Of a stretch of DNA of 64,000 bases, positions 445 through 11,649 are shown one piece after another. Position 1 is the stretch's first letter; each line of letters starts with the position of its first letter. The notes under the pieces are model-generated. The model worked only from the letters and a program-made list of their open reading frames with translations. It did no database searches and was not told the DNA's origin. Source of the stretch: Cytophagales bacterium (GTDB taxonomy: Bacteria; Bacteroidota; Bacteroidia; Cytophagales; Cyclobacteriaceae). Both the position numbers and the translations under genes were made by a program. The stretch covers positions 40,100 through 104,099 of the forward strand of contig JANYHI010000083.1 in the NCBI GenBank assembly GCA_025359125.1, written 5' to 3'.

Positions 445-876
445 CTATCGTTTGAAACCTAGTGCGCTGCCTCCGCATTTCCCGGTTGAGCCGTCAAAAG
501 TATATTGTATGTAATAGATGCCGGTAGCATTGCAAGGATAAGCTATTGCGGAAATGAATTGACCATTGATTTTACTGGTAGCCACCTTGTTTCTTCCAGA
601 ATCAAATAGCGTAACTACAATTCCATCGGTGGCAGCACCATTTGCACAAAGATTAATCATGTATTGAGTGCCTTTGGTAAAAACGTAGCTGTATTCTACT
701 TTTTCTTTTGCTCCACTCTCGCCATCAACTTTATAGCTTTTCAAGAAATTAAAACCCGATGCTAGTTTAGGAATGCACGCATTGGCAAAATTATCTGGGT
801 TACACTGTCCATTAAGCTTAATCGTGCCAGCACTTAAGATGGATGCAAAGAAGGTTATTAAAAGAGCCTTTTTCAT
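445..876 (-). CDS. secreted Cys-containing protein of unknown function
   Basis: Signal peptide MKKALLITFFASILSAGTIKLNG followed by soluble domain with several Cys; 16 bp from upstream gene. Confidence 0.65.
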   Translation of the reverse strand: MKKALLITFFASILSAGTIKLNGQCNPDNFANACIPKLASGFNFLKSYKVDGESGAKEKVEYSYVFTKGTQYMINLCANGAATDGIVVTLFDSGRNKVATSKINGQFISAIAYPCNATGIYYIQYTFDGSTGKCGGSALGFKR

Positions 877-892
877 ATAGAATTTCGAAATT

Positions 893-1786
893 TTAACCGA
901 TTATTTTGTTTCTAATAATGTTTGTGAGATTCTTAATATTCTCAACATCTTGATTAGTAATATTAATAGTAGTAGTGCTGTTATCTTTAATCATTGCCAC
1001 TCCGTTCACCACTTCCATAGTAGATTCTTTGTAGGTATAAGTAATATTAATCTTATCAAATGCAACCTTCAATGTTTCCATGTCATTCAATAAAGATGCC
1101 ATGTTTGCATCATCCTTGTAAAAAGAAAGAAGCAATACAATTTGTTCCAGAATAATTTTTTGTTCGCCTACTTTTTCCTGTAGTTCTTTATTCTTACTGT
1201 CTTTAGCGGCTACCTGACAAGTTATTTGCATGGCTTCTACCCATCCGCCAACGAGTAAAAGAACACTTAAATTAGCTCTGCTTTGGGTTTGCAAATAGTG
1301 ATTGATGCTATTGAAATTCTGAGTAGTTATCAACAATAAGGAGTCGAGATTTTTGCTATTAGTGGCAAGTCTTCCAATTGTTTCAATATCAAAGAATTGG
1401 CCAATATTTAAACCATCGGCTAGTGACTTGATAGAAGACAGATATTTAATTCCATCCTGATTTTGCTCATAGATATTGGTATATCCCAAATCTGTTCCGT
1501 AAACCCCCAGATTGAGGGCTTTCTTATAATTGCTGTTATACTTAGGCAGATTATCTGATGTATTTAAAAGAGCAGAATTGTACTTAGTGCCGGACTCTTT
1601 TAATAGTACAGAGATCTCCAGAGGGCTTGGTATCTGCTGCAAAATACTGTTAATAACCTCCTCATCAATGGTGGGTCCTGTTTTGGTAGAATCCAAACTG
1701 TTAAGGAATGCTTGTTCATCTGGCTTCTTGCTTGATCCACAGGCAGATAGGAATAGTGCAATTAGTCCAATAGATAAAAGTCTCAT
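893..1786 (-). CDS. predicted lipoprotein, helical, unknown function
   Basis: ORF 893..1828; likely start at internal Met giving MRLLSIGLIALFLSACGSSKK with lipobox LSAC. Confidence 0.7.
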   Translation of the reverse strand: MRLLSIGLIALFLSACGSSKKPDEQAFLNSLDSTKTGPTIDEEVINSILQQIPSPLEISVLLKESGTKYNSALLNTSDNLPKYNSNYKKALNLGVYGTDLGYTNIYEQNQDGIKYLSSIKSLADGLNIGQFFDIETIGRLATNSKNLDSLLLITTQNFNSINHYLQTQSRANLSVLLLVGGWVEAMQITCQVAAKDSKNKELQEKVGEQKIILEQIVLLLSFYKDDANMASLLNDMETLKVAFDKINITYTYKESTMEVVNGVAMIKDNSTTTINITNQDVENIKNLTNIIRNKIIG

Positions 1787-1845: not shown

Positions 1846-4800
1846 TTATCTCTTTTTAAATGGTATTGATACCTTATCGGGGATGCTAAACTTACCAAAA
1901 AAATCAATTAACTTCTTCAGCCATTCATTATAAAGAGAAATGTAAAATAATAAGCCCATCATCCAAATAATAAGCAGGTTAAACCAGAAAGTACTAACAG
2001 TGTTACCCAACAGATTTTTTTCAGGCACAAAGAAAGGTGCTCTGTAATCAAATAAATTCGTAGGCTTGGGCTCTTGAAAGATCGGGTTTATTTGTTGGAT
2101 CAATTTTCCTTCATATTCAAGCAATCGATCTTTTGTATTTACATTTTTTACAAGGTCTGCTAAGCTCTCGTTGTAATAGTTATTCTTTTCATCGTTGATG
2201 TTATGGCCAGCCTTTTCATCAAATGCCATGCGCTTTTCAATCAGCAAAACATTTTCATTATAAATGGTTTGATAATGCTTTTTATAATCTTCGAAGTAGT
2301 TATCGAGAATGCCACCCCTTATTTTACTATAATTCTCTGGCAAGAAATCTTTAGATAAGTCAACTTTTTCAAAACCTGGTTTGTACGGTTCGGCTTTTAA
2401 GCTAGTAATCAAAATATTGAGATTGTATGCCACTAATTTCTTGATGGAATCATTTTTGGATTCGAAATTTTGGAGGACAAATAGATTTCTTCTTTTAAGG
2501 TTATCGTACAGGTAAGCGGCTTTGAAATCTGCCTTGGCTTCTTCGCGTTCATATTTATAATACGTGGCCTCGTATTCATTCGATGTAAACTGATGCGTGG
2601 CCAAGGCTTCGTACGCCCAACGAGAAGCCATAAAGTCTGCCACTACCGGCACTTTTCCTTTTGTAGATATTAGATTATTTAACTTATCGAAATTGAATAG
2701 CAGCCCACTCAAAATCATTTGAGGGATTAACAATAGCGGAATCATTACGTAAACAGTAACTGCCGAATTAAAGGCAGATGAAATATTCAGCCCAAGAATG
2801 TTGGCAAAGCATGAAGTTGTAAAAAGAACAAACCAAAATGCAAATGTCATTCCGTGAATTTCAAGAATGAGATTTCCCAATAACACAAACGTGAATGTTT
2901 GAATGGCCGACATTAAAAATAGAATAGCCAGCTTAGAAAGCAGGTAGCTATTCCAACTTAAATTGAGGAATGATTCTCTCTTTAAAATTTTTCTGTCGCG
3001 AATAATTTCTTCCGCGCTCACCGTTAATCCCATGAAGAGCGCAACGATTATCGACATCAATAAAAAAGCGGGAAAGTTATCATTGAATCTAAAAATGTAT
3101 TCTTTTCCTCCTGGCGCACTTTTGTATTTAATGATGAAAGCAAGAATGGTAGCCAGCAAAGGAGCTTCCAATAAGTTGATGAGTAGATATTGCTTATTGC
3201 TGAGCTTAGAAAGAAAATCTCTTGTAGTGAAAACTGCAATTTGTTTTAGTTTCCCGGGAATATTTAATGTGCTAGGAGGTTCTTCTTTAACATCTTCAAG
3301 GCGATTAATTTTGAAGCGCTCTTTATACATCTCATGCCACTGCGGAGGAGTAACTTTTCTCTTACTGGTAGGCTGACCATATTCATCAACCACTTTTGCC
3401 TCAATAATATTAAAAATTTGTTCTGGGTTTACGTTACCACAGGTCTCGCATTGTCCGCGATTGCTATCAACCTGATGAGTTGCTTTCTTGAAATAAGTAA
3501 CGGCTTCCACAGGGCTACCATAGTAGGAGGGAAACCCGCCAGTATCCATGATTACCATCTTATCAAACATTTTGTAAATATCTGATGAAGGTTGATGGAT
3601 AACCACAAAAATTAATTTGCCTTTTAAGGATAATTCTTTTAGGAGGTCAATAACATTTTCTGAATCTCTGGATGAAAGACCTGATGTGGGTTCATCTAAG
3701 AAGAGAATTGCTGGCTCACGAATTAATTCTAGTGCTATATTTAATCTTTTGCGCTGCCCACCACTTATTTTTTTATCGAGTACACTTCCTACCGTTAAAT
3801 CTTTGCGCTGATCCAGCCCCAGATTTTCTAGTGTGGCCATTACCCGCTCGTGCAGTTGTTGTTCTGAAAAATCTGCAAAGCAAAGTTTAGCGTTGTAATA
3901 TAAGTTTTGATAGACAGTAAGTTCTTCAATCAACAAATCATCTTGCGATACAAAACCAATTACGCCTTGAATTTTATCTTTTTGAGTGTTGATATCAAAT
4001 CCATTAATCAGAATTTCGCCTTGCGATGGTTTCTCTAAACCAGCAAGCGTAAGTAGAAGAGTGGTTTTACCTGCTCCACTGGCACCCATAATTCCAATTA
4101 GTTTGCCAGGCCCTTCAGCAATGAACACATCGCGCAATCCTATCGCCCCATTCGGAAATTTAAACTCTTTAACATTGGCGTTGAATGATAACTTAGTTGT
4201 CTTAATCTCCTCATTGAAGTGGGCAACTAAATCGCTATAGTAGAGTGCATCACCAGCCTGAGTTTTAATAGTGCTTCCATGCGAGAAGAGGTAAACACGA
4301 TTGGGCTGAATGATGAATCCATTTAGGATATTGGCTTCTTCGCCTAAATATTTTGTGAAATACATTTCAACGCTACTCACCCTCATAAAAATAAGGTTGC
4401 CTGTTATATGGCCATGAGTATGTTTTTGAAGTTCTGTGGATTTCTGTTGAGAAGAATTGAGAATAAGAATGTCTTTAAAATTCAAGTCTTCAACTTTCTC
4501 TGACGTAATAAATGATTCAATGATTTTGTACTCTTCCTGACCGATATTAAAAACAGTAGAGACTGTATTGATAATTTCAATTCGTTGAGGTGTAAAATTT
4601 TTATCTGAACCAACCAGCTCTAATAATTTGATGAGAACTACTACTTTTTGCTTTTGAGTAAGGGTCTTATTTATTTTTTTACAGATACCGAGTGTCTTAA
4701 CAGAATCTTTTACGGAAGTGAGTTTATTTTTTTCATCTCCGGCACTTTGCTTATTGTATCCAGAAAACTCATCGTAAAGCTCTAAGTATTCTTTAATTGA

Positions 4801-4926
4801 ATCTTGATCTAATTCTGTTTGGAAGAAATTGATGACAAACTGGCGCTCATTGACTGTTACACCACCATCTTGTTTGGTGATAATAGCAAATAACTGCGTT
4901 AGCGCCTTTAGAATTTCTTCACTCAT
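1846..4926 (-). CDS. ABCG-like ABC transporter (ATPase + ABC-2 permease) with N-terminal TerB-like domain
   Basis: Walker A GIMGASGAGKTTLL, signature SGGQRKRLNIALEL, Walker B AILFLDEPTSGLSS, multiple TM segments in C-terminal half; N-terminus resembles TerB-like helical domain. Confidence 0.85.
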   Translation of the reverse strand: MSEEILKALTQLFAIITKQDGGVTVNERQFVINFFQTELDQDSIKEYLELYDEFSGYNKQSAGDEKNKLTSVKDSVKTLGICKKINKTLTQKQKVVVLIKLLELVGSDKNFTPQRIEIINTVSTVFNIGQEEYKIIESFITSEKVEDLNFKDILILNSSQQKSTELQKHTHGHITGNLIFMRVSSVEMYFTKYLGEEANILNGFIIQPNRVYLFSHGSTIKTQAGDALYYSDLVAHFNEEIKTTKLSFNANVKEFKFPNGAIGLRDVFIAEGPGKLIGIMGASGAGKTTLLLTLAGLEKPSQGEILINGFDINTQKDKIQGVIGFVSQDDLLIEELTVYQNLYYNAKLCFADFSEQQLHERVMATLENLGLDQRKDLTVGSVLDKKISGGQRKRLNIALELIREPAILFLDEPTSGLSSRDSENVIDLLKELSLKGKLIFVVIHQPSSDIYKMFDKMVIMDTGGFPSYYGSPVEAVTYFKKATHQVDSNRGQCETCGNVNPEQIFNIIEAKVVDEYGQPTSKRKVTPPQWHEMYKERFKINRLEDVKEEPPSTLNIPGKLKQIAVFTTRDFLSKLSNKQYLLINLLEAPLLATILAFIIKYKSAPGGKEYIFRFNDNFPAFLLMSIIVALFMGLTVSAEEIIRDRKILKRESFLNLSWNSYLLSKLAILFLMSAIQTFTFVLLGNLILEIHGMTFAFWFVLFTTSCFANILGLNISSAFNSAVTVYVMIPLLLIPQMILSGLLFNFDKLNNLISTKGKVPVVADFMASRWAYEALATHQFTSNEYEATYYKYEREEAKADFKAAYLYDNLKRRNLFVLQNFESKNDSIKKLVAYNLNILITSLKAEPYKPGFEKVDLSKDFLPENYSKIRGGILDNYFEDYKKHYQTIYNENVLLIEKRMAFDEKAGHNINDEKNNYYNESLADLVKNVNTKDRLLEYEGKLIQQINPIFQEPKPTNLFDYRAPFFVPEKNLLGNTVSTFWFNLLIIWMMGLLFYISLYNEWLKKLIDFFGKFSIPDKVSIPFKKR

Positions 4927-4965
4927 TCTGCGAGAAGTTAATTGCTAATAACTGTTAACGGGTAA

Positions 4966-5328
4966 CTAGTAAGTTTTGAATTCGAACGGAATCTCTACCA
5001 ATTCAGAAAACTCTTGGCCTGCTTCTTCCATATCTTCATCATCATCATGAAAATACCAGATTACTTTCACGCCTTTGATTTCTTCGAGGGCAGAAAGCAC
5101 GTCTAATATCAATTTAGAAGAAGCGGTGTTAAAATATTCTAGTTTAAAAGCAAATTCAGTGGCAGGATTAGCTGCTGTGGCATATGTGTTTATCCACTCA
5201 ATCACTGGCTTATAAAACTCAGCTGAGTCTTCTGGCAAAGAGCGGCCACTGATTTCAAAAATTCCATTCTTTTTGTCAAGTAAAATGGTGGGTGTATCTT
5301 CAGTTCCTTTAAGATTTAAGATTTCCAT
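4966..5328 (-). CDS. SiaC-family (DUF1987) regulatory phosphoprotein
   Basis: 120 aa; motif LEYFNTASSKLILDVL and N-terminal TPTILLDKKNGIFEISGRSLPEDS typical of DUF1987/SiaC; T68 sits in the FNTASSK motif. Confidence 0.8.
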   Translation of the reverse strand: MEILNLKGTEDTPTILLDKKNGIFEISGRSLPEDSAEFYKPVIEWINTYATAANPATEFAFKLEYFNTASSKLILDVLSALEEIKGVKVIWYFHDDDEDMEEAGQEFSELVEIPFEFKTY

Positions 5329-5352
5329 GATGGTTCAGTTTTATTTTATTAA

Positions 5353-5907
5353 TTATTCTTTTTCACGAGAGATATTTACTTTCAAGCAGAAAAAATCGTA
5401 CTCAGCGTCCATGCTGCTGAATGAGAATTCTAATTTCTCCCCCGATTTTCTGGCCATATCAACAAAGCCTAAACCGGCACCTCCCTTTTCAGAAATTTGC
5501 GTGTTCTTAATAATGTCTTTATACATTTCTTTGAGTCCCTCTTTGTCTTTGGAGTTCAGATCTTCTAGATTTTTAGTAAGCCCTGCAACTTTTGATTTAG
5601 GAATTGGATTGCCTGTCATTACGCAATAGCGTTTATCATCTTTGCTGATCATAAAGATGGCGCTTTTGCTTACGAGAGATCCAGCCTGTAATCCTTGTTC
5701 GCTGCTGTGCTTCACAATATTTTGTAATGCCTCAACCATTACGTTAAAAACCTTACGCTTAGTGCCTGAATCTTCGCCAGAAGAATCGAGGTTACGCTCG
5801 GCCATTGACAGAATAGATTTGGTAGTTTCTTGCGTGAAATCGCCATCGTATACCAAGATCAGTTTCTGGGACATCATGGTCCGGTGCAGTTCGTAGATAT
5901 AATTCAT
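5353..5907 (-). CDS. SiaB-family GHKL-type protein kinase
   Basis: N-box-like VEALQNIVKHS and G-box-like GGAGLGFVDMARKS; adjacent to SiaC-like gene. Confidence 0.75.
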   Translation of the reverse strand: MNYIYELHRTMMSQKLILVYDGDFTQETTKSILSMAERNLDSSGEDSGTKRKVFNVMVEALQNIVKHSSEQGLQAGSLVSKSAIFMISKDDKRYCVMTGNPIPKSKVAGLTKNLEDLNSKDKEGLKEMYKDIIKNTQISEKGGAGLGFVDMARKSGEKLEFSFSSMDAEYDFFCLKVNISREKE

Positions 5908-6005
5908 TGCTTTATTGTTTGGGTTCCGAATTTATGAGTTTTAAGCTAAAGTATCCTATTAATTTGATGTGTAATTAGCAATTAAGAAACGATTCTTCAA
6001 ATGTT

Positions 6006-9000
6006 TTAGAGTTTAATACCGATTAATAATACGTCATCTGTCTGTTTGTGGTCTGCCTTCCAGCCTTCCCACTCGGCATCAAATACCTGCGCAGCTTCTA
6101 CCATTGGTTTGGTATGTACTCGTTCAATAATCTCTCTCGTTTTCTTAGGGCCAAACTTTCGTACCTCTGGGCCTCCGAACTGATCAGGGAAACCATCTGA
6201 GCTAAAGTAAAAGGAGTCTCCTTTGGCAAGCTCAAGGCGCGTTGTTGTGAAGTTGGTTTGGTTTTTAAAAATGCCACCACCAATCGGGAATTTATTTCCT
6301 TTCACCTCTTCCATCATCCCGCTCTTCATGATATACAAAGGTCGATGTGCTCCCGCATACTCAACTGTTTTAGTTTCTGTGTTGATGCGGCAAAGCGCAA
6401 TGTCCATTCCGTCTTTAGTGGCCGAATCTTCCTGATCTTGGCGAAGTGTTTGAGTTACGCCTTCATCTAATAAGTCAAGTATTTTTCCGGGCTCCGTAAT
6501 CTTTCTGCTTCGAACAATATCATTCAATAAGAAGTATCCGATCAACGAAAGTAGAGCGCCTGGAACTCCGTGCCCAGTGCAGTCTACGGCAGCTATGAAA
6601 ATATCATTCTTAATTTGAACAAACCATGGAAAGTCTCCACTTACCACATCTCTGGGTTTGTATAAAATGAAGGAGTCCGGTAAAGCTTTGTTGATCAATC
6701 TTGTATTTGGAAGAATAGCATTTTGAATTCTTTTTGCGTAGTTGATGGAATCGTTGATCTTCTTATTCTTATTCTGAATTTCAAGTTCAATCTCTTTTCG
6801 CTCTGTAATATCATGAGAAACTACCAATACAGATTCAATGTTTTCCTGATCATCATATTCAGGAATTGCATTCACCTGCATTACTCGCTGTCCTAATTCA
6901 GAAGGGAAATCCATCTCTACCGAAACCTTATCATTCGTGTTATTTACTTGCTCCACAATAGATAGCCATTGATCTAAAATGATGGTATCCAAATCTGCTT
7001 CTTTGACTTTTTTATTGATGAAGCGCTCTGGTGATTTTCCGGTATAAGATTCAATAGTAGGGTTGATATAGGAAATAGAATCGTGCTCGAGACGGGTAAT
7101 GATATCTAGAGAGTTTTCAGATAACGCCTGCATCTTACTGCGCATCCGCTGCTCTTGCTCGGCCAATCTTCGTTCTGTAATATCGCGTGAGTTGAGAATA
7201 AATCCATGAATGGCAGGATTGGACATGAAGTTAGTTCCTGTAGCTTCCAACCAGATGTAACGATCGTCTTTCGTTTTATACTCAAGCTGCACGGTCATTT
7301 TTTCATTAGGATGAGAGCGCAAGAAGTCAAATAATCCTTTTGCTACTTCCAGGCTATTAGGGTGTACACGATCTAAATCGCTTTGGCCTTGTAATTCTTT
7401 TTGGTTGTACCCTAAAATGGTTTCTACAGAAGGAGAGATGTATCTGATTTTGCCGTCTTCTTCATAAATGGTAATAACCTCAGAAGCGTTTTCCAGCAAT
7501 AGCTGCATTCTGTTTTGTGTGCGGTTAACTTCTTCAATTTGCTCTTCTAACTTAATGTTTGAGCGTTGTAATTCTTCTTGTGTGGCACGCATCTCTTCCG
7601 CATTTTGGCGCAACACTTCTTGTTTTTCGGTAAGTTCGGCACTCAATGCTTGAGATTCTCCCAATAGTTTACGAGTGCGTTCATTTACTTTTATGTTAAA
7701 GATGGTACGCGCCAGAATCACACTTAGTTCTTGCACAAACTTTACTTGCGATGAGTCGAATTTTTTTAATCCTGCTAACTCTACAACTCCATAAACTTCT
7801 TCGTTAGTAATGAGTGGTACAATAAGTATGCAATTGGGCTTTTGGTCTCCTAAAATACCTGAGGTAAGTGTTACATATTCATCCGGTATTTCAGTCCTCA
7901 GAACATAATCTTTCTCGGCTGCCGCTTGCCCTACCAATCCTTCGGCAAACCGGAATGAATTCTTTAAGTATTTTTTTCGACTGTATGCAAAGCTAGCTCT
8001 CAATTCAATCAGCTTTACTTTATCATCATTTACCACATAAAATGCACCTTGCACAGCGTTTATTTTTTCGATGATGAATTGGATAATATCATCTCCAAGT
8101 CCATCGATAGTATCATGTAGCCTTAATATTTCAGCAACTTCTGCCACACCTCTCACAATCCAGTTGCGTTCTTTATCTCTGCGTTCGTTTTCAATCAGAT
8201 TTTCGCGCATGTTCAACAGCGCTAACCCAAGCGTATCATTTTCGCTGGCAGGTTTATAGGCTGCATTAAATTTACCTTCGCCTACTAATCTTGCAAACTG
8301 CGCACTTCCTTTCAAGGTTTGAACTAACCCGTCAACCTTATTGGCCATCTGACCAAATTCATCGCTGCTGGTAGCTTCAACTTTGTCTGGTAAAATTCCA
8401 TTAGATACCATTTCTAATGTATCTCTCATGGTATGAAGCGGCTGAGTTAGGGAACGTGCAAAAAGAGACGCTGCTCCAAAGGCAATTAGGATGATGGCTA
8501 ATCCGCTAAACAGATAGATTCTTTTCAAATCGCTTCCCTGACTGTTAAGCTCATCAGTATCCATTTTAACAATTAATGCCCAAGGTGCTTGACTGATTTT
8601 TCTATAGGCAGCTATAACTTCTTTTTTTCTGTAGTCCTTGCCTGTGGCCAATCCATTTTTTCCCTCTAGAGCTAAATTAATTTCGTGTACTTCTTTGCTA
8701 TCCTTCTCAAAGAATTTTAAAAAAGCCCCGGGATCATTGCGGAGTGGACTTGCCAAGATTACTTTTTGAGTAGTTTGATCAATCAGTCCGATAAATGCCT
8801 CGCCCGTATTGCCCAAACCGATTGGATCTTCGAGCGATTTATAAATGGATGATAAGTTGATTGTGAAAATAATGATGTGGTTGTGAGCAGGTGCGCCTAC
8901 ATAAACGAAATAGCTCTTATCTATTTTCTTAACTGTGCTGAAGTAAAGTTTGCTTGCTGCATTTGAGAGGAAGGCTCCATCGGGATCAGCAAAATGCCCC

Positions 9001-9365
9001 ATGGTTTTATTGGATGAGTTTGCTCGTATCTCAGCTTGTTGATTGATGATTGTTATCTCGTTTAACTTGAATTCATCTTTTATTTTAGAAAGACTTGCTG
9101 CTAGTGAATCGGGAGAATTAGTTAACAATTTTTTAAACTCATCTGAATTTTGAAAGAATGAAATTGTGGAGCCAATATGATTGAGATAGGAATTGATTTG
9201 CGCTGCTCGGTTGTCTGCAATCACAGACAGATTGACACCCAACTTTTCTTTTGCAGCATTTTCATTAATATGAAAAGTGAAGAGAGAAATAAGGAGTACT
9301 GTAACCAATGAAATGATTACAATTAACCCAGTAATCTTAGTGCTTATTTTTATATTCTTAAACAT
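6006..9365 (-). CDS. SiaA-like multi-domain sensor: periplasmic Cache-like, HAMP, GAF, coiled coil, two PAS, SpoIIE/PP2C phosphatase
   Basis: N-terminal TM helix + extracytoplasmic domain, second TM, HAMP, GAF (EGLVGQAAAEKDY), PAS-PAC (YIWLEATGTNF...DITERR; VVSHDITERK), SpoIIE core RDVVSGDF...FIAAVDCTGHGVPGALLSLIG. Confidence 0.85.
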   Translation of the reverse strand: MFKNIKISTKITGLIVIISLVTVLLISLFTFHINENAAKEKLGVNLSVIADNRAAQINSYLNHIGSTISFFQNSDEFKKLLTNSPDSLAASLSKIKDEFKLNEITIINQQAEIRANSSNKTMGHFADPDGAFLSNAASKLYFSTVKKIDKSYFVYVGAPAHNHIIIFTINLSSIYKSLEDPIGLGNTGEAFIGLIDQTTQKVILASPLRNDPGAFLKFFEKDSKEVHEINLALEGKNGLATGKDYRKKEVIAAYRKISQAPWALIVKMDTDELNSQGSDLKRIYLFSGLAIILIAFGAASLFARSLTQPLHTMRDTLEMVSNGILPDKVEATSSDEFGQMANKVDGLVQTLKGSAQFARLVGEGKFNAAYKPASENDTLGLALLNMRENLIENERRDKERNWIVRGVAEVAEILRLHDTIDGLGDDIIQFIIEKINAVQGAFYVVNDDKVKLIELRASFAYSRKKYLKNSFRFAEGLVGQAAAEKDYVLRTEIPDEYVTLTSGILGDQKPNCILIVPLITNEEVYGVVELAGLKKFDSSQVKFVQELSVILARTIFNIKVNERTRKLLGESQALSAELTEKQEVLRQNAEEMRATQEELQRSNIKLEEQIEEVNRTQNRMQLLLENASEVITIYEEDGKIRYISPSVETILGYNQKELQGQSDLDRVHPNSLEVAKGLFDFLRSHPNEKMTVQLEYKTKDDRYIWLEATGTNFMSNPAIHGFILNSRDITERRLAEQEQRMRSKMQALSENSLDIITRLEHDSISYINPTIESYTGKSPERFINKKVKEADLDTIILDQWLSIVEQVNNTNDKVSVEMDFPSELGQRVMQVNAIPEYDDQENIESVLVVSHDITERKEIELEIQNKNKKINDSINYAKRIQNAILPNTRLINKALPDSFILYKPRDVVSGDFPWFVQIKNDIFIAAVDCTGHGVPGALLSLIGYFLLNDIVRSRKITEPGKILDLLDEGVTQTLRQDQEDSATKDGMDIALCRINTETKTVEYAGAHRPLYIMKSGMMEEVKGNKFPIGGGIFKNQTNFTTTRLELAKGDSFYFSSDGFPDQFGGPEVRKFGPKKTREIIERVHTKPMVEAAQVFDAEWEGWKADHKQTDDVLLIGIKL

Positions 9366-9385
9366 GCTATTTCGGCATTATTTGT

Positions 9386-10159
9386 TTACATCTTTTCAAT
9401 CAATATAACGGCTAATTCTTCTGCTTGCTTTCTGGTATTTTCACCGATAGGTGTGAAGGTTGCAATTTCGATTACACCTAAAACATTATTTTCTTTTTTG
9501 ATAGGAGCCACATACAAAAACTTAGGTGCGGCTGAACCTAATCCACTGACAATTGCATTGCTATAACCTTCGGGCAATTCATCTAAATAAATACTTTTGC
9601 CTGAAGCTGCAGCTTGACCTACCAAGCCTTCACCAAATTCAAATGTTATTTTTTCCGATTCGCCCAACAAGGCAAATGATGCTTTCATTTCTACCATTCT
9701 TTTAGAATTTGAAGTAGTCGCTTTATACAAAGCACCTTGCCCTGCATGTAGCAGGTCGCAAATAGAATTTAAACCTACTTTAGCAACTTCTCCTGCTTTG
9801 GCACTAGTAAGGCTTGTTAAGAAAGTTTGTTTATCTAATGTAATAGCAGCTGCATCTTGTTCACTTTTTTCATTAGCAGAGTCAATACTTTTTTCTTTAA
9901 ATACGATAATTTCTTTCTTTATGCGCTGCAATGCATTGATAGCCACTACCCCCAATGCGAAAGTGATAGCAAGTACAATAAACACTTTAGCGTATACGGC
10001 AGTAGCTAAACCCGATGAAGTCATGCCACCTTTAAATTCTAAATCATGCGGGAGTGTGAATAAAAAATAAATTGAGAGGGCGATGCCCACAAAGAAAAGT
10101 GCTGCAATTGCCAGGCTGCTTTTCTGAGGATCTTTAAATGATTGAATAAACCTTTCCAT
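9386..10159 (-). CDS. membrane-anchored GAF domain protein
   Basis: Two TM helices then GAF with EGLVGQAAASGKSIYLDELPEGY, closely resembling the GAF of the downstream SiaA-like protein. Confidence 0.75.
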   Translation of the reverse strand: MERFIQSFKDPQKSSLAIAALFFVGIALSIYFLFTLPHDLEFKGGMTSSGLATAVYAKVFIVLAITFALGVVAINALQRIKKEIIVFKEKSIDSANEKSEQDAAAITLDKQTFLTSLTSAKAGEVAKVGLNSICDLLHAGQGALYKATTSNSKRMVEMKASFALLGESEKITFEFGEGLVGQAAASGKSIYLDELPEGYSNAIVSGLGSAAPKFLYVAPIKKENNVLGVIEIATFTPIGENTRKQAEELAVILIEKM

Positions 10160-10764
10160 TATTTATAGTGCTTATCAAGTTCTGTTAAAAATTCTACTAT
10201 CTGATCGATTTTCATAACATGATCAATCTGGGTAAGCGAAAGTGCGGCCTTTGGCATGGTATCAATCATGCATTCTGTTGGTTCTTGAACGATCGTTAAG
10301 CCTCCCTTATCCTTAATGTGTTTCATGCCCAATCCACCGTCTCTATTGGCACCCGAAAGTAATATGCCGATTAGCTTATCGCGATACACATAAGCTGCTG
10401 TGCCCAGTGTAATATCAATTGCTGGGCGTGAGTTATTAATCATTTCTTCTGTTGACATGGCAAAATAGTTACCTAATTCTACTGACATGTGGTAGTTAGA
10501 AGGCGCCAAATAAACACCTCCTTTTTTAATTTGATCCTTATCATTTGGTTCTACCACTTGCGCAACACTCTTAATTGACAATGCTTCCACAAACCCGTTA
10601 CGCACATGCTTTAATCGATGCAAGCACATGATTATGGGAAGGTGAAAGGTTTTAGGTAACTGCGAGAGAATCCGGGTTATCCCCTGAAAACTTCCGGCCG
10701 AACCACCGATCACTACTGCCTTGTAGCTATTATTTAAGTTATACTTGTCCATGGCAGTGTGCAC
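10159..10764 (-). CDS. cheB: stand-alone CheB methylesterase domain (no receiver)
   Basis: VVIGGSAGSFQGI, GVYLAPSNYHM, IGILLSGANRDGGLGMKHIKDKGG. Confidence 0.85.
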   Translation of the reverse strand: MHTAMDKYNLNNSYKAVVIGGSAGSFQGITRILSQLPKTFHLPIIMCLHRLKHVRNGFVEALSIKSVAQVVEPNDKDQIKKGGVYLAPSNYHMSVELGNYFAMSTEEMINNSRPAIDITLGTAAYVYRDKLIGILLSGANRDGGLGMKHIKDKGGLTIVQEPTECMIDTMPKAALSLTQIDHVMKIDQIVEFLTELDKHYK

Positions 10765-11589
10765 CTAGTCCTTTACCTTCTTATAAACCTTTTCTTCGTT
10801 GTTAACCACTAAAAATTTGTTGGCTACTTCGCACCAGATGAGAGATTCTTTTGATCCGATGGCGAGGTATCCATACTTAAACATGCTATCATGAAACTTC
10901 TTCAACACCTCATTTTGCAGACTCTGATTAAAATAGATCATCACGTTACGGCATAAAATCAGATCGAACTTGTTAAAGACTTCGCCCTTTACCAAATCGT
11001 GCTTTCTAAAGATTACGTTTTGCAATAGCTCTTTATCAAAAACTGCTTTTCCGTTTTCTTCCTGATAGTATTCTTTCAAAGATTTTTTTCCCTCGTACCG
11101 GATATAGTTCTTTTCATTCAACTCCATGTTCTTGATCGGGTAAGATGCCAACTTTGCTTTTTCTAAAATGGTAGTATCCAGATCAGTAGCATAAAGTTGA
11201 ACGTCTTGAAGTATGCCCATCTCTTTCAATGCGATTGCCATAGAGAGAACCTCTTCTCCCGAAGAACAGCCTGCATGCCAGATCTTAAAGGTTTTGTGGT
11301 TGAGCAATATGCCGGGTATAATTTCATCTCTGATGATCCTCCAAAAGCCCGGATCGCGAAACATTTCAGTAACATTAACAGTAAGCTCATCTAAAAAGTC
11401 ATCCATAAAAGCAGGCTGCTCGTTTAGCTTTTTAAGCAATGTTTCAATAGATAAACTTTTTAGCTCAAGTATTCTTAGCATCCGTCTTTTAAAAGAGGAC
11501 ATGGCATAATTGCGGAAATCGTAGCCATACTTACTTTGAACAAGTTCTGTGATCTTCTTAAGATCGGCAATATCAATGTCTTGTACCAC
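10765..11589 (-). CDS. cheR: CheR-type protein-glutamate O-methyltransferase
   Basis: KIWHAGCSSGEEVLSMAI, LYATDLDTTILEKA, FDLILCRNVMIYFN. Confidence 0.9.
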   Translation of the reverse strand: MVQDIDIADLKKITELVQSKYGYDFRNYAMSSFKRRMLRILELKSLSIETLLKKLNEQPAFMDDFLDELTVNVTEMFRDPGFWRIIRDEIIPGILLNHKTFKIWHAGCSSGEEVLSMAIALKEMGILQDVQLYATDLDTTILEKAKLASYPIKNMELNEKNYIRYEGKKSLKEYYQEENGKAVFDKELLQNVIFRKHDLVKGEVFNKFDLILCRNVMIYFNQSLQNEVLKKFHDSMFKYGYLAIGSKESLIWCEVANKFLVVNNEEKVYKKVKD

Positions 11590-11620: not shown

Positions 11621-11649
11621 CAAAAATATACTTTCATTATGCTATCAAG
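11621..11649 (-). promoter_or_regulatory. candidate Bacteroidota-type promoter for the cheR-led directon
   Basis: On the minus strand CTTG - 17 nt - TATTTTTG (consensus -33 TTTG / -7 TAnnTTTG) about 35 nt upstream of cheR start. Confidence 0.3.

Follow-up and report, generated by a model that had tools for sequence, protein, structure and literature searches.

The seven-gene operon and its conservation

The DNA analysed here is a 64,000-nucleotide stretch of contig JANYHI010000083.1 from a Cytophagales bacterium (assembly GCA_025359125.1, positions 40,100 to 104,099), and we refer to the whole of it as the window. Seven consecutive minus-strand genes at 1846-11589 join a methyltransferase (CheR) and a methylesterase (CheB) to a membrane GAF protein, a SiaA-SiaB-SiaC-like module and an ATP-binding cassette (ABC) exporter. 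The initial annotation had described these genes as a directon with small gaps, and open reading frame calls with Pfam and NCBIfam domain searches confirm it: the intergenic gaps, read from cheR to the exporter, are 0, -1 (a 1-base overlap), 20, 98, 24 and 39 bp. The same-strand run extends past the exporter into a lipoprotein gene and then a small secreted-protein gene.

11621..11628, minus strand: TATTTTTG, which lies upstream of cheR and matches TAnnTTTG, the Bacteroidota -7 element
10765..11589, minus strand: cheR, protein-glutamate methyltransferase (CheR_N plus S-adenosylmethionine-binding domain), GTG start; CheR 1.9e-43
10159..10764, minus strand: cheB, methylesterase domain only, no receiver; CheB_methylest 1.7e-47
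9386..10159, minus strand: membrane GAF protein (GAF_2), likely with two membrane helices as judged by eye; its place in the gene order is conserved
6006..9365, minus strand: SiaA-like sensor phosphatase with dCache, HAMP, GAF, coiled coil, PAS, PAS and SpoIIE/PP2C
7557..7613, minus strand: SiaA coiled-coil motif LRQNAEEMRATQEELQRSN, residues 585-603, holding two Glu pairs that could accept methyl groups (E590/E591 and E597/E598)
5353..5907, minus strand: SiaB family kinase (DUF6272); NCBIfam NF038262
4966..5328, minus strand: SiaC (PF09345/DUF1987), phosphoacceptor T68 within YFNTASS; 2.3e-39
1846..4926, minus strand: TerB-FHA-like-ABCG-type exporter, a half-transporter with nucleotide-binding domain then transmembrane domain (TerB, ABC_tran, ABC2_membrane)
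4222..4479, minus strand: FHA-like beta-sandwich of the exporter, residues ~150-235 (AlphaFold2 model, Foldseek), without the canonical phosphothreonine-binding motif
893..1786, minus strand: lipoprotein with a lipobox (LSAC) recognised by eye; its family is conserved together with the exporter
445..876, minus strand: secreted protein of 143 aa, the final gene of the same-strand run

A lack of conserved linkage had been named beforehand as refuting a joint system, and the linkage turned out to be strongly conserved. When GTDB genomes were scanned with a pattern for SiaC alone, 80 named loci were obtained, of which nearly all are from Cytophagales. In 79 of these siaB adjoins siaC, and 71 had sufficient upstream contig for the gene order to be tested. 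The complete order siaB-siaA-GAF-cheB-cheR was present in 68 of the 71, which is far beyond chance, and we reject chance clustering of the block. The exporter lies immediately downstream of siaC in 76 of the 79. The exceptions are L136, which lacks the regulatory half, and L182 and L188, which hold siaB-siaC only; L088 and L089 are reduced to siaB-siaC-exporter-lipoprotein. Orthologues of the window SiaC (62-89% identity) occupy the same operon in several families, and the block itself persists while the flanking genes vary between families. A gene similar in size to that of the 143-aa protein comes after the lipoprotein gene in most loci. SiaC as a family is found in 115 of 195 genomes of the order, the paralogues examined being mostly bare siaB-siaC pairs. 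The same parts recur in other orders of the class, as divergent halves in L222 and L223, in the standard order in L224 and L225, and as cheR-cheB-GAF-siaA without the exporter in L226, L228 and L229. Judged by gene order, this appears to be a real operon that is widely conserved in Cytophagales and beyond. At L136, in a metagenome-assembled genome, siaB abuts the cytidine deaminase gene; cheR-cheB-GAF-siaA have either been cleanly deleted there or are missing through an assembly error.

The Bacteroidota -7 promoter element has the consensus TAnnTTTG, and we compared its counts in the gaps of the block with the expectation from shuffled sequences. The element was enriched upstream of cheR (34/75 loci, 12 expected) and between the exporter and lipoprotein genes (53/84 against 6.6), these counts not being independent, since the sequences are related. 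It was found in 5 of 91 siaA-siaB gaps (4.1 expected), 2 of 108 siaB-siaC gaps (1.8) and 1 of 88 siaC-exporter gaps (5.7), and was slightly above chance in the cheB-GAF gap (5/78, 1.4 expected). Enrichment at cheR and at the lipoprotein gene, with none from siaA to the exporter, favours a single transcription unit from cheR to the exporter, with a second start for the lipoprotein, and so supports the single operon that had been proposed. The survey lends no support to a promoter of their own for siaB-siaC or for the exporter. A generic sigma-70 promoter and terminator scan was uninformative for this phylum.

Sensor phosphatase, methylation enzymes and exporter

The SiaA, SiaB and SiaC products each match solved Pseudomonas proteins. 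The sole PDB match of the SiaA PP2C domain is P. aeruginosa SiaA (6K4E, E 2.9e-36), and the metal-binding Asp residues of PP2C are present within a membrane sensor layout. SiaA scores 207 against the NCBIfam SiaA equivalog cut-off of 700, and we therefore call it SiaA-like and not an equivalog. SiaB matches SiaB_fam_kinase (NF038262) at 182.9 bits, where the cut-off is 85, and the SiaB chain of 6KKO at 1.2e-12; SiaC matches 6KKO/6K4F at 1e-17. SiaC N67 and T68 are invariant in 17 orthologues and stand at the same position as in 6K4F/6KKO; in Pseudomonas, Thr68 is the SiaC phosphoacceptor (PMC7647112). These matches make the module SiaABC-like, and the complete SiaA/SiaB/SiaC-like module of the initial annotation stands. 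By homology, we infer that SiaB phosphorylates SiaC Thr68 here and that SiaA dephosphorylates it. The genome carries only one SiaC. No GGDEF domain was matched anywhere in this genome, which is scored 100% complete; the absence of a SiaD-like gene, noted earlier for the window, thus holds genome-wide, and SiaC cannot act here through a SiaD-like cyclase. We accordingly reject a cyclic di-GMP output.

The adaptation pair also seems to be catalytically complete. The CheR motifs AGCSSGEE, ATDLD and CRNVMIYF align with solved CheR, with the catalytic residues intact, and the Ser, His and Asp of the CheB catalytic triad align with solved CheB. The operon CheB has no receiver domain, and would therefore be unregulated; the operon CheBs form one group, separate from receiver-bearing CheBs, with support of 100/100. 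A domain search found no CheA, CheW or methyl-accepting chemotaxis protein (MCP) encoded in the operon, as had been claimed, and all three are present elsewhere in the source genome together with a receiver-bearing CheB. The operon CheB is the sole CheB found in 11 relatives (G064, G144, G019, G078, G048, G062, G036, G065, G066, G093 and G193), so it cannot be redundant with the CheB of some other chemotaxis system. No CheB was found in a further genome, G126, and its SiaA coil is eroded. Elsewhere in the source genome (G000 contig C60:186514-187887; L033, L109) the gene for a CheB-CheR hybrid sensor contains an in-frame TAG; either the gene is broken or the TAG is a sequencing error.

A candidate substrate for this pair lies within SiaA. 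The coiled coil between its GAF and PAS domains is the most conserved domain of the protein (mean 0.84 over 85 orthologues, against 0.79 for PP2C and 0.39 for Cache), and its motif has the core QNAEEMxATQEEL. E590, E591, E597 and E598 are conserved at 95-99% in the same orthologues. The Glu pairs, in EEMxAT and EELxRS, are spaced 7 residues apart; they agree only in part with the MCP methylation consensus, and they occur in orphan proteins as well. The motif occurs in SiaA or in a neighbouring protein at 22 of 25 loci that have cheR, cheB and a PP2C gene without CheA. In five loci of other orders (L224, L225, L226, L228 and L229) SiaA is short by exactly 42 residues, or six heptads, at the coil, and in all of these except L224 a motif-bearing GAF protein lies in the cluster near cheR. 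In-phase heptad indels are known from chemoreceptors, and the SiaA gap resembles them. SiaA holds the only exact motif match of the genome in G064, G144, G019 and G078. CheB is present in 44 of 44 motif-positive near-complete genomes and in 78 of 117 motif-negative ones (Fisher p 6e-7), an association to which we give little weight in view of the relatedness of the genomes and the frequency of CheB. Adaptation of SiaA by CheR and CheB through methylation is a plausible and well-placed hypothesis, drawn from this linkage.

The sequence flanking the 42-residue gap is intact in the SiaA homologues of L224-L229. Many GAF proteins (L289, L294-L299, L301, L304-L314, L317-L325) end in an EEEMRQNMEEMxATQEEM coil, with no output domain among those searched; they look like receptors without an effector. 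In G040, also of the Cytophagales, several such coil-ending GAF proteins adjoin SiaA.

The exporter is a half-transporter with ABC2_membrane, and it scores 246.8 bits with TIGR00955, under that model's cut-off. An AlphaFold2 model of residues 1-256 (56-sequence alignment, predicted local distance difference test 88) has a helical TerB domain and, after it, a beta-sandwich. The PDB matches listed by Foldseek for the sandwich are FHA domains or FHA-containing complexes, with probabilities up to 1.0 and E-values from 0.01 up, and the predicted fold suggests that a cryptic FHA-like domain follows TerB. There was no Pfam FHA hit in the exporter. When GR, SxxH and TNG were checked, the invariant Arg was absent and the Ser and His positions were not conserved either, the structural LNG turn alone being kept; a canonical phosphothreonine-binding FHA domain is rejected on both counts. 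The lipoprotein model is mostly helical with four C-terminal strands, and a structure search found no PDB match for it. For its start, the ATG giving 893-1786 is favoured as likely, the listed GTG at 1828 being too long. Neither the lipoprotein nor the 143-aa secreted protein matched a known family in the domain searches. Two exporter paralogues, 30-35% identical, are found in the same genome (L342, G000:C41; L343, G000:C39); one of them adjoins a lipoprotein paralogue, and SiaC is near neither. Exporter and lipoprotein together thus resemble an effector module onto which the switch was added.

Proposed mechanism and alternatives

We suggest that the block is best explained as a whole as an ancient single signalling-and-export unit in which an adapting sensor controls envelope export, a reading to which we give an even chance of being right. 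An envelope or metabolic signal would be read by the dCache, HAMP, GAF and PAS domains of SiaA, perhaps aided by the membrane GAF protein, and would set PP2C activity. SiaB would phosphorylate SiaC Thr68 and SiaA would remove the phosphate, as the homologous enzymes do in Pseudomonas. The phosphorylation state of SiaC may then determine how it binds the TerB/FHA-like head of the exporter in the cytoplasm, and so gate export through the exporter and the lipoprotein. Meanwhile, CheR and the receiver-less CheB would continually methylate and demethylate the Glu pairs of the GAF-PAS coil; in other orders the target may instead be the adjacent GAF-coiled-coil protein. Such turnover could let the phosphatase adapt slowly and retain a memory, as chemoreceptors do. 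In its most specific form, which we put forward tentatively and rate somewhat below an even chance, SiaA would be a methyl-accepting Ser/Thr phosphatase. Its PP2C partner switch would adapt, in the manner of chemotaxis, through Glu methylation within a six-heptad coiled-coil cassette, with CheR and a constitutively active CheB as the enzymes; the output would be the FHA-like ABC exporter, and neither CheA nor an MCP, a motor or cyclic di-GMP would take part.

Several findings weigh against this proposal. By our own reading, the motif meets half of the MCP methylation consensus, having the C-terminal side (E-E-x-x-A-T) and not the N-terminal side. Of 60 motif-bearing loci, 40 are without a che gene in the surrounding ~9 kb, and most of these encode orphan GAF-coil proteins; the coil is thus not specific to methylation systems, and the idea that its motif occurs solely beside cheRB is rejected. 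L224 has neither the coil in SiaA nor a motif-bearing neighbour, and SiaA of L087, L270, L271, L278 and L279 retains the motif without linked cheRB. The FHA-like domain lacks phosphothreonine-binding residues, and siaB-siaC pairs without an exporter are common. The suggestion of the initial annotation that methylation tunes the phosphatase is plausible and has gained a candidate site in E590/E591/E597/E598, but the case for it is indirect, and most proteins with the same coil do not lie beside che genes. Its other suggestion, that the transporter may be the output, is favoured by an adjacency that hardly varies and by the loci reduced to SiaB-SiaC-exporter-lipoprotein.

It could be that SiaABC controls the exporter, with CheR and CheB merely co-transcribed and acting on orphan GAF-coiled-coil receptors or on the MCP of the genome. 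The EEM.ATQEE coil does occur in that MCP and in many orphan HAMP-GAF-coil proteins without an output domain, and in other orders it sits in a separate GAF protein beside cheR. However, in the 11 relatives named above no other CheB was found, four of them have their only exact motif match in SiaA, and the adjacency of cheRB to siaA is fixed across orders; we consider this alternative unlikely, if still a serious one. Slightly less likely still, in our view, is that SiaC has its target elsewhere than in the operon, and that the same promoter simply co-expresses exporter, lipoprotein and small protein as cargo. In its favour, the paralogues of the source genome show that the exporter-lipoprotein pair also exists without SiaC, and the bare SiaB-SiaC pairs of L182 and L188 and the separate promoter element of the lipoprotein point the same way. 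Against this stand the position of the exporter directly after siaC in nearly all loci, its retention with the lipoprotein beside siaB-siaC in the reduced loci L088, L089 and L136, and the lack of GGDEF in the genome. That the block is only a passive syntenic relic, its genes neighbours by descent with unrelated functions, we regard as hardly credible: most named loci come from one order, and shared descent inflates the counts, but the block stays while its flanks change between families, its complete though rearranged content recurs in other orders (L222, L223), and its internal gaps are without promoter elements.

To our knowledge, reversible Glu methylation is known as a memory device almost only for chemoreceptors. 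If it were coupled to a partner-switching phosphatase in the single signalling-and-export unit proposed here, adaptation would be a portable module. Likewise, the widespread SiaC family, for which the output studied is a diguanylate cyclase, would gain a second class of output, a gated exporter. The operon suggests control of envelope export instead of swimming or cyclic di-GMP, and it is available as a dedicated operon in the culturable genera Chryseolinea, Ohtaekwangia, Fulvivirga and Marivirga.

Known systems and flanking genes

No description of cheRB combined with SiaABC and an ABC exporter was found in the literature searched. As far as can be read from the genes, three known kinds of part are joined in a way not found in that literature, SiaABC partner switching being combined with the adaptation enzymes of chemosensing and with what would be a new output. 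SiaABCD of P. aeruginosa (PMC7647112, PMC8457831) has the same PP2C SiaA, kinase SiaB, SiaC Thr68 and gene order, with the regulated gene directly 3' of siaC, and SiaC proteins as a family have been proposed to target what the neighbouring gene encodes (PMC8457831). In contrast to Pseudomonas, the genome here encodes neither SiaD nor any GGDEF protein, SiaA contains GAF, coiled-coil and PAS regions, cheR-cheB is in the operon, and a TerB-FHA-like ABC exporter lies downstream. With chemosensory adaptation the operon shares a CheR and CheB that are, by their residues, catalytically complete, whereas its CheB has no receiver, CheA, CheW, CheY and MCP are absent from it, and the closest-lying coiled-coil protein that could serve as substrate is a phosphatase. 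Chemosensory clusters of the Stage-1 F7 type that include anti-sigma factor antagonists and a serine phosphatase (PMC7184735) likewise hold che genes and partner-switching-type proteins in one cluster, but they have full CheA/CheW/chemoreceptor sets, where only CheR and CheB are present here. Rv1747 of M. tuberculosis, too, is an ABC transporter whose cytoplasmic head contains FHA; its FHA binds a threonine-phosphorylated protein, which switches the transporter off (PMC5549992). Unlike in Rv1747, the FHA-like domain here is degenerate and preceded by TerB, and the candidate phosphoprotein, SiaC, has a dedicated kinase and phosphatase.

The surroundings of the block show some regularities of their own. 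On the upstream side, many relatives (L122, L123, L128-L135 and others) have an extra GAF gene between cheR and the cytidine deaminase gene, which the window does not have. To the left of the window (L111), and in the downstream flank of most surveyed loci, three plus-strand genes of ~240, 245 and 252 aa hold their position in many species.

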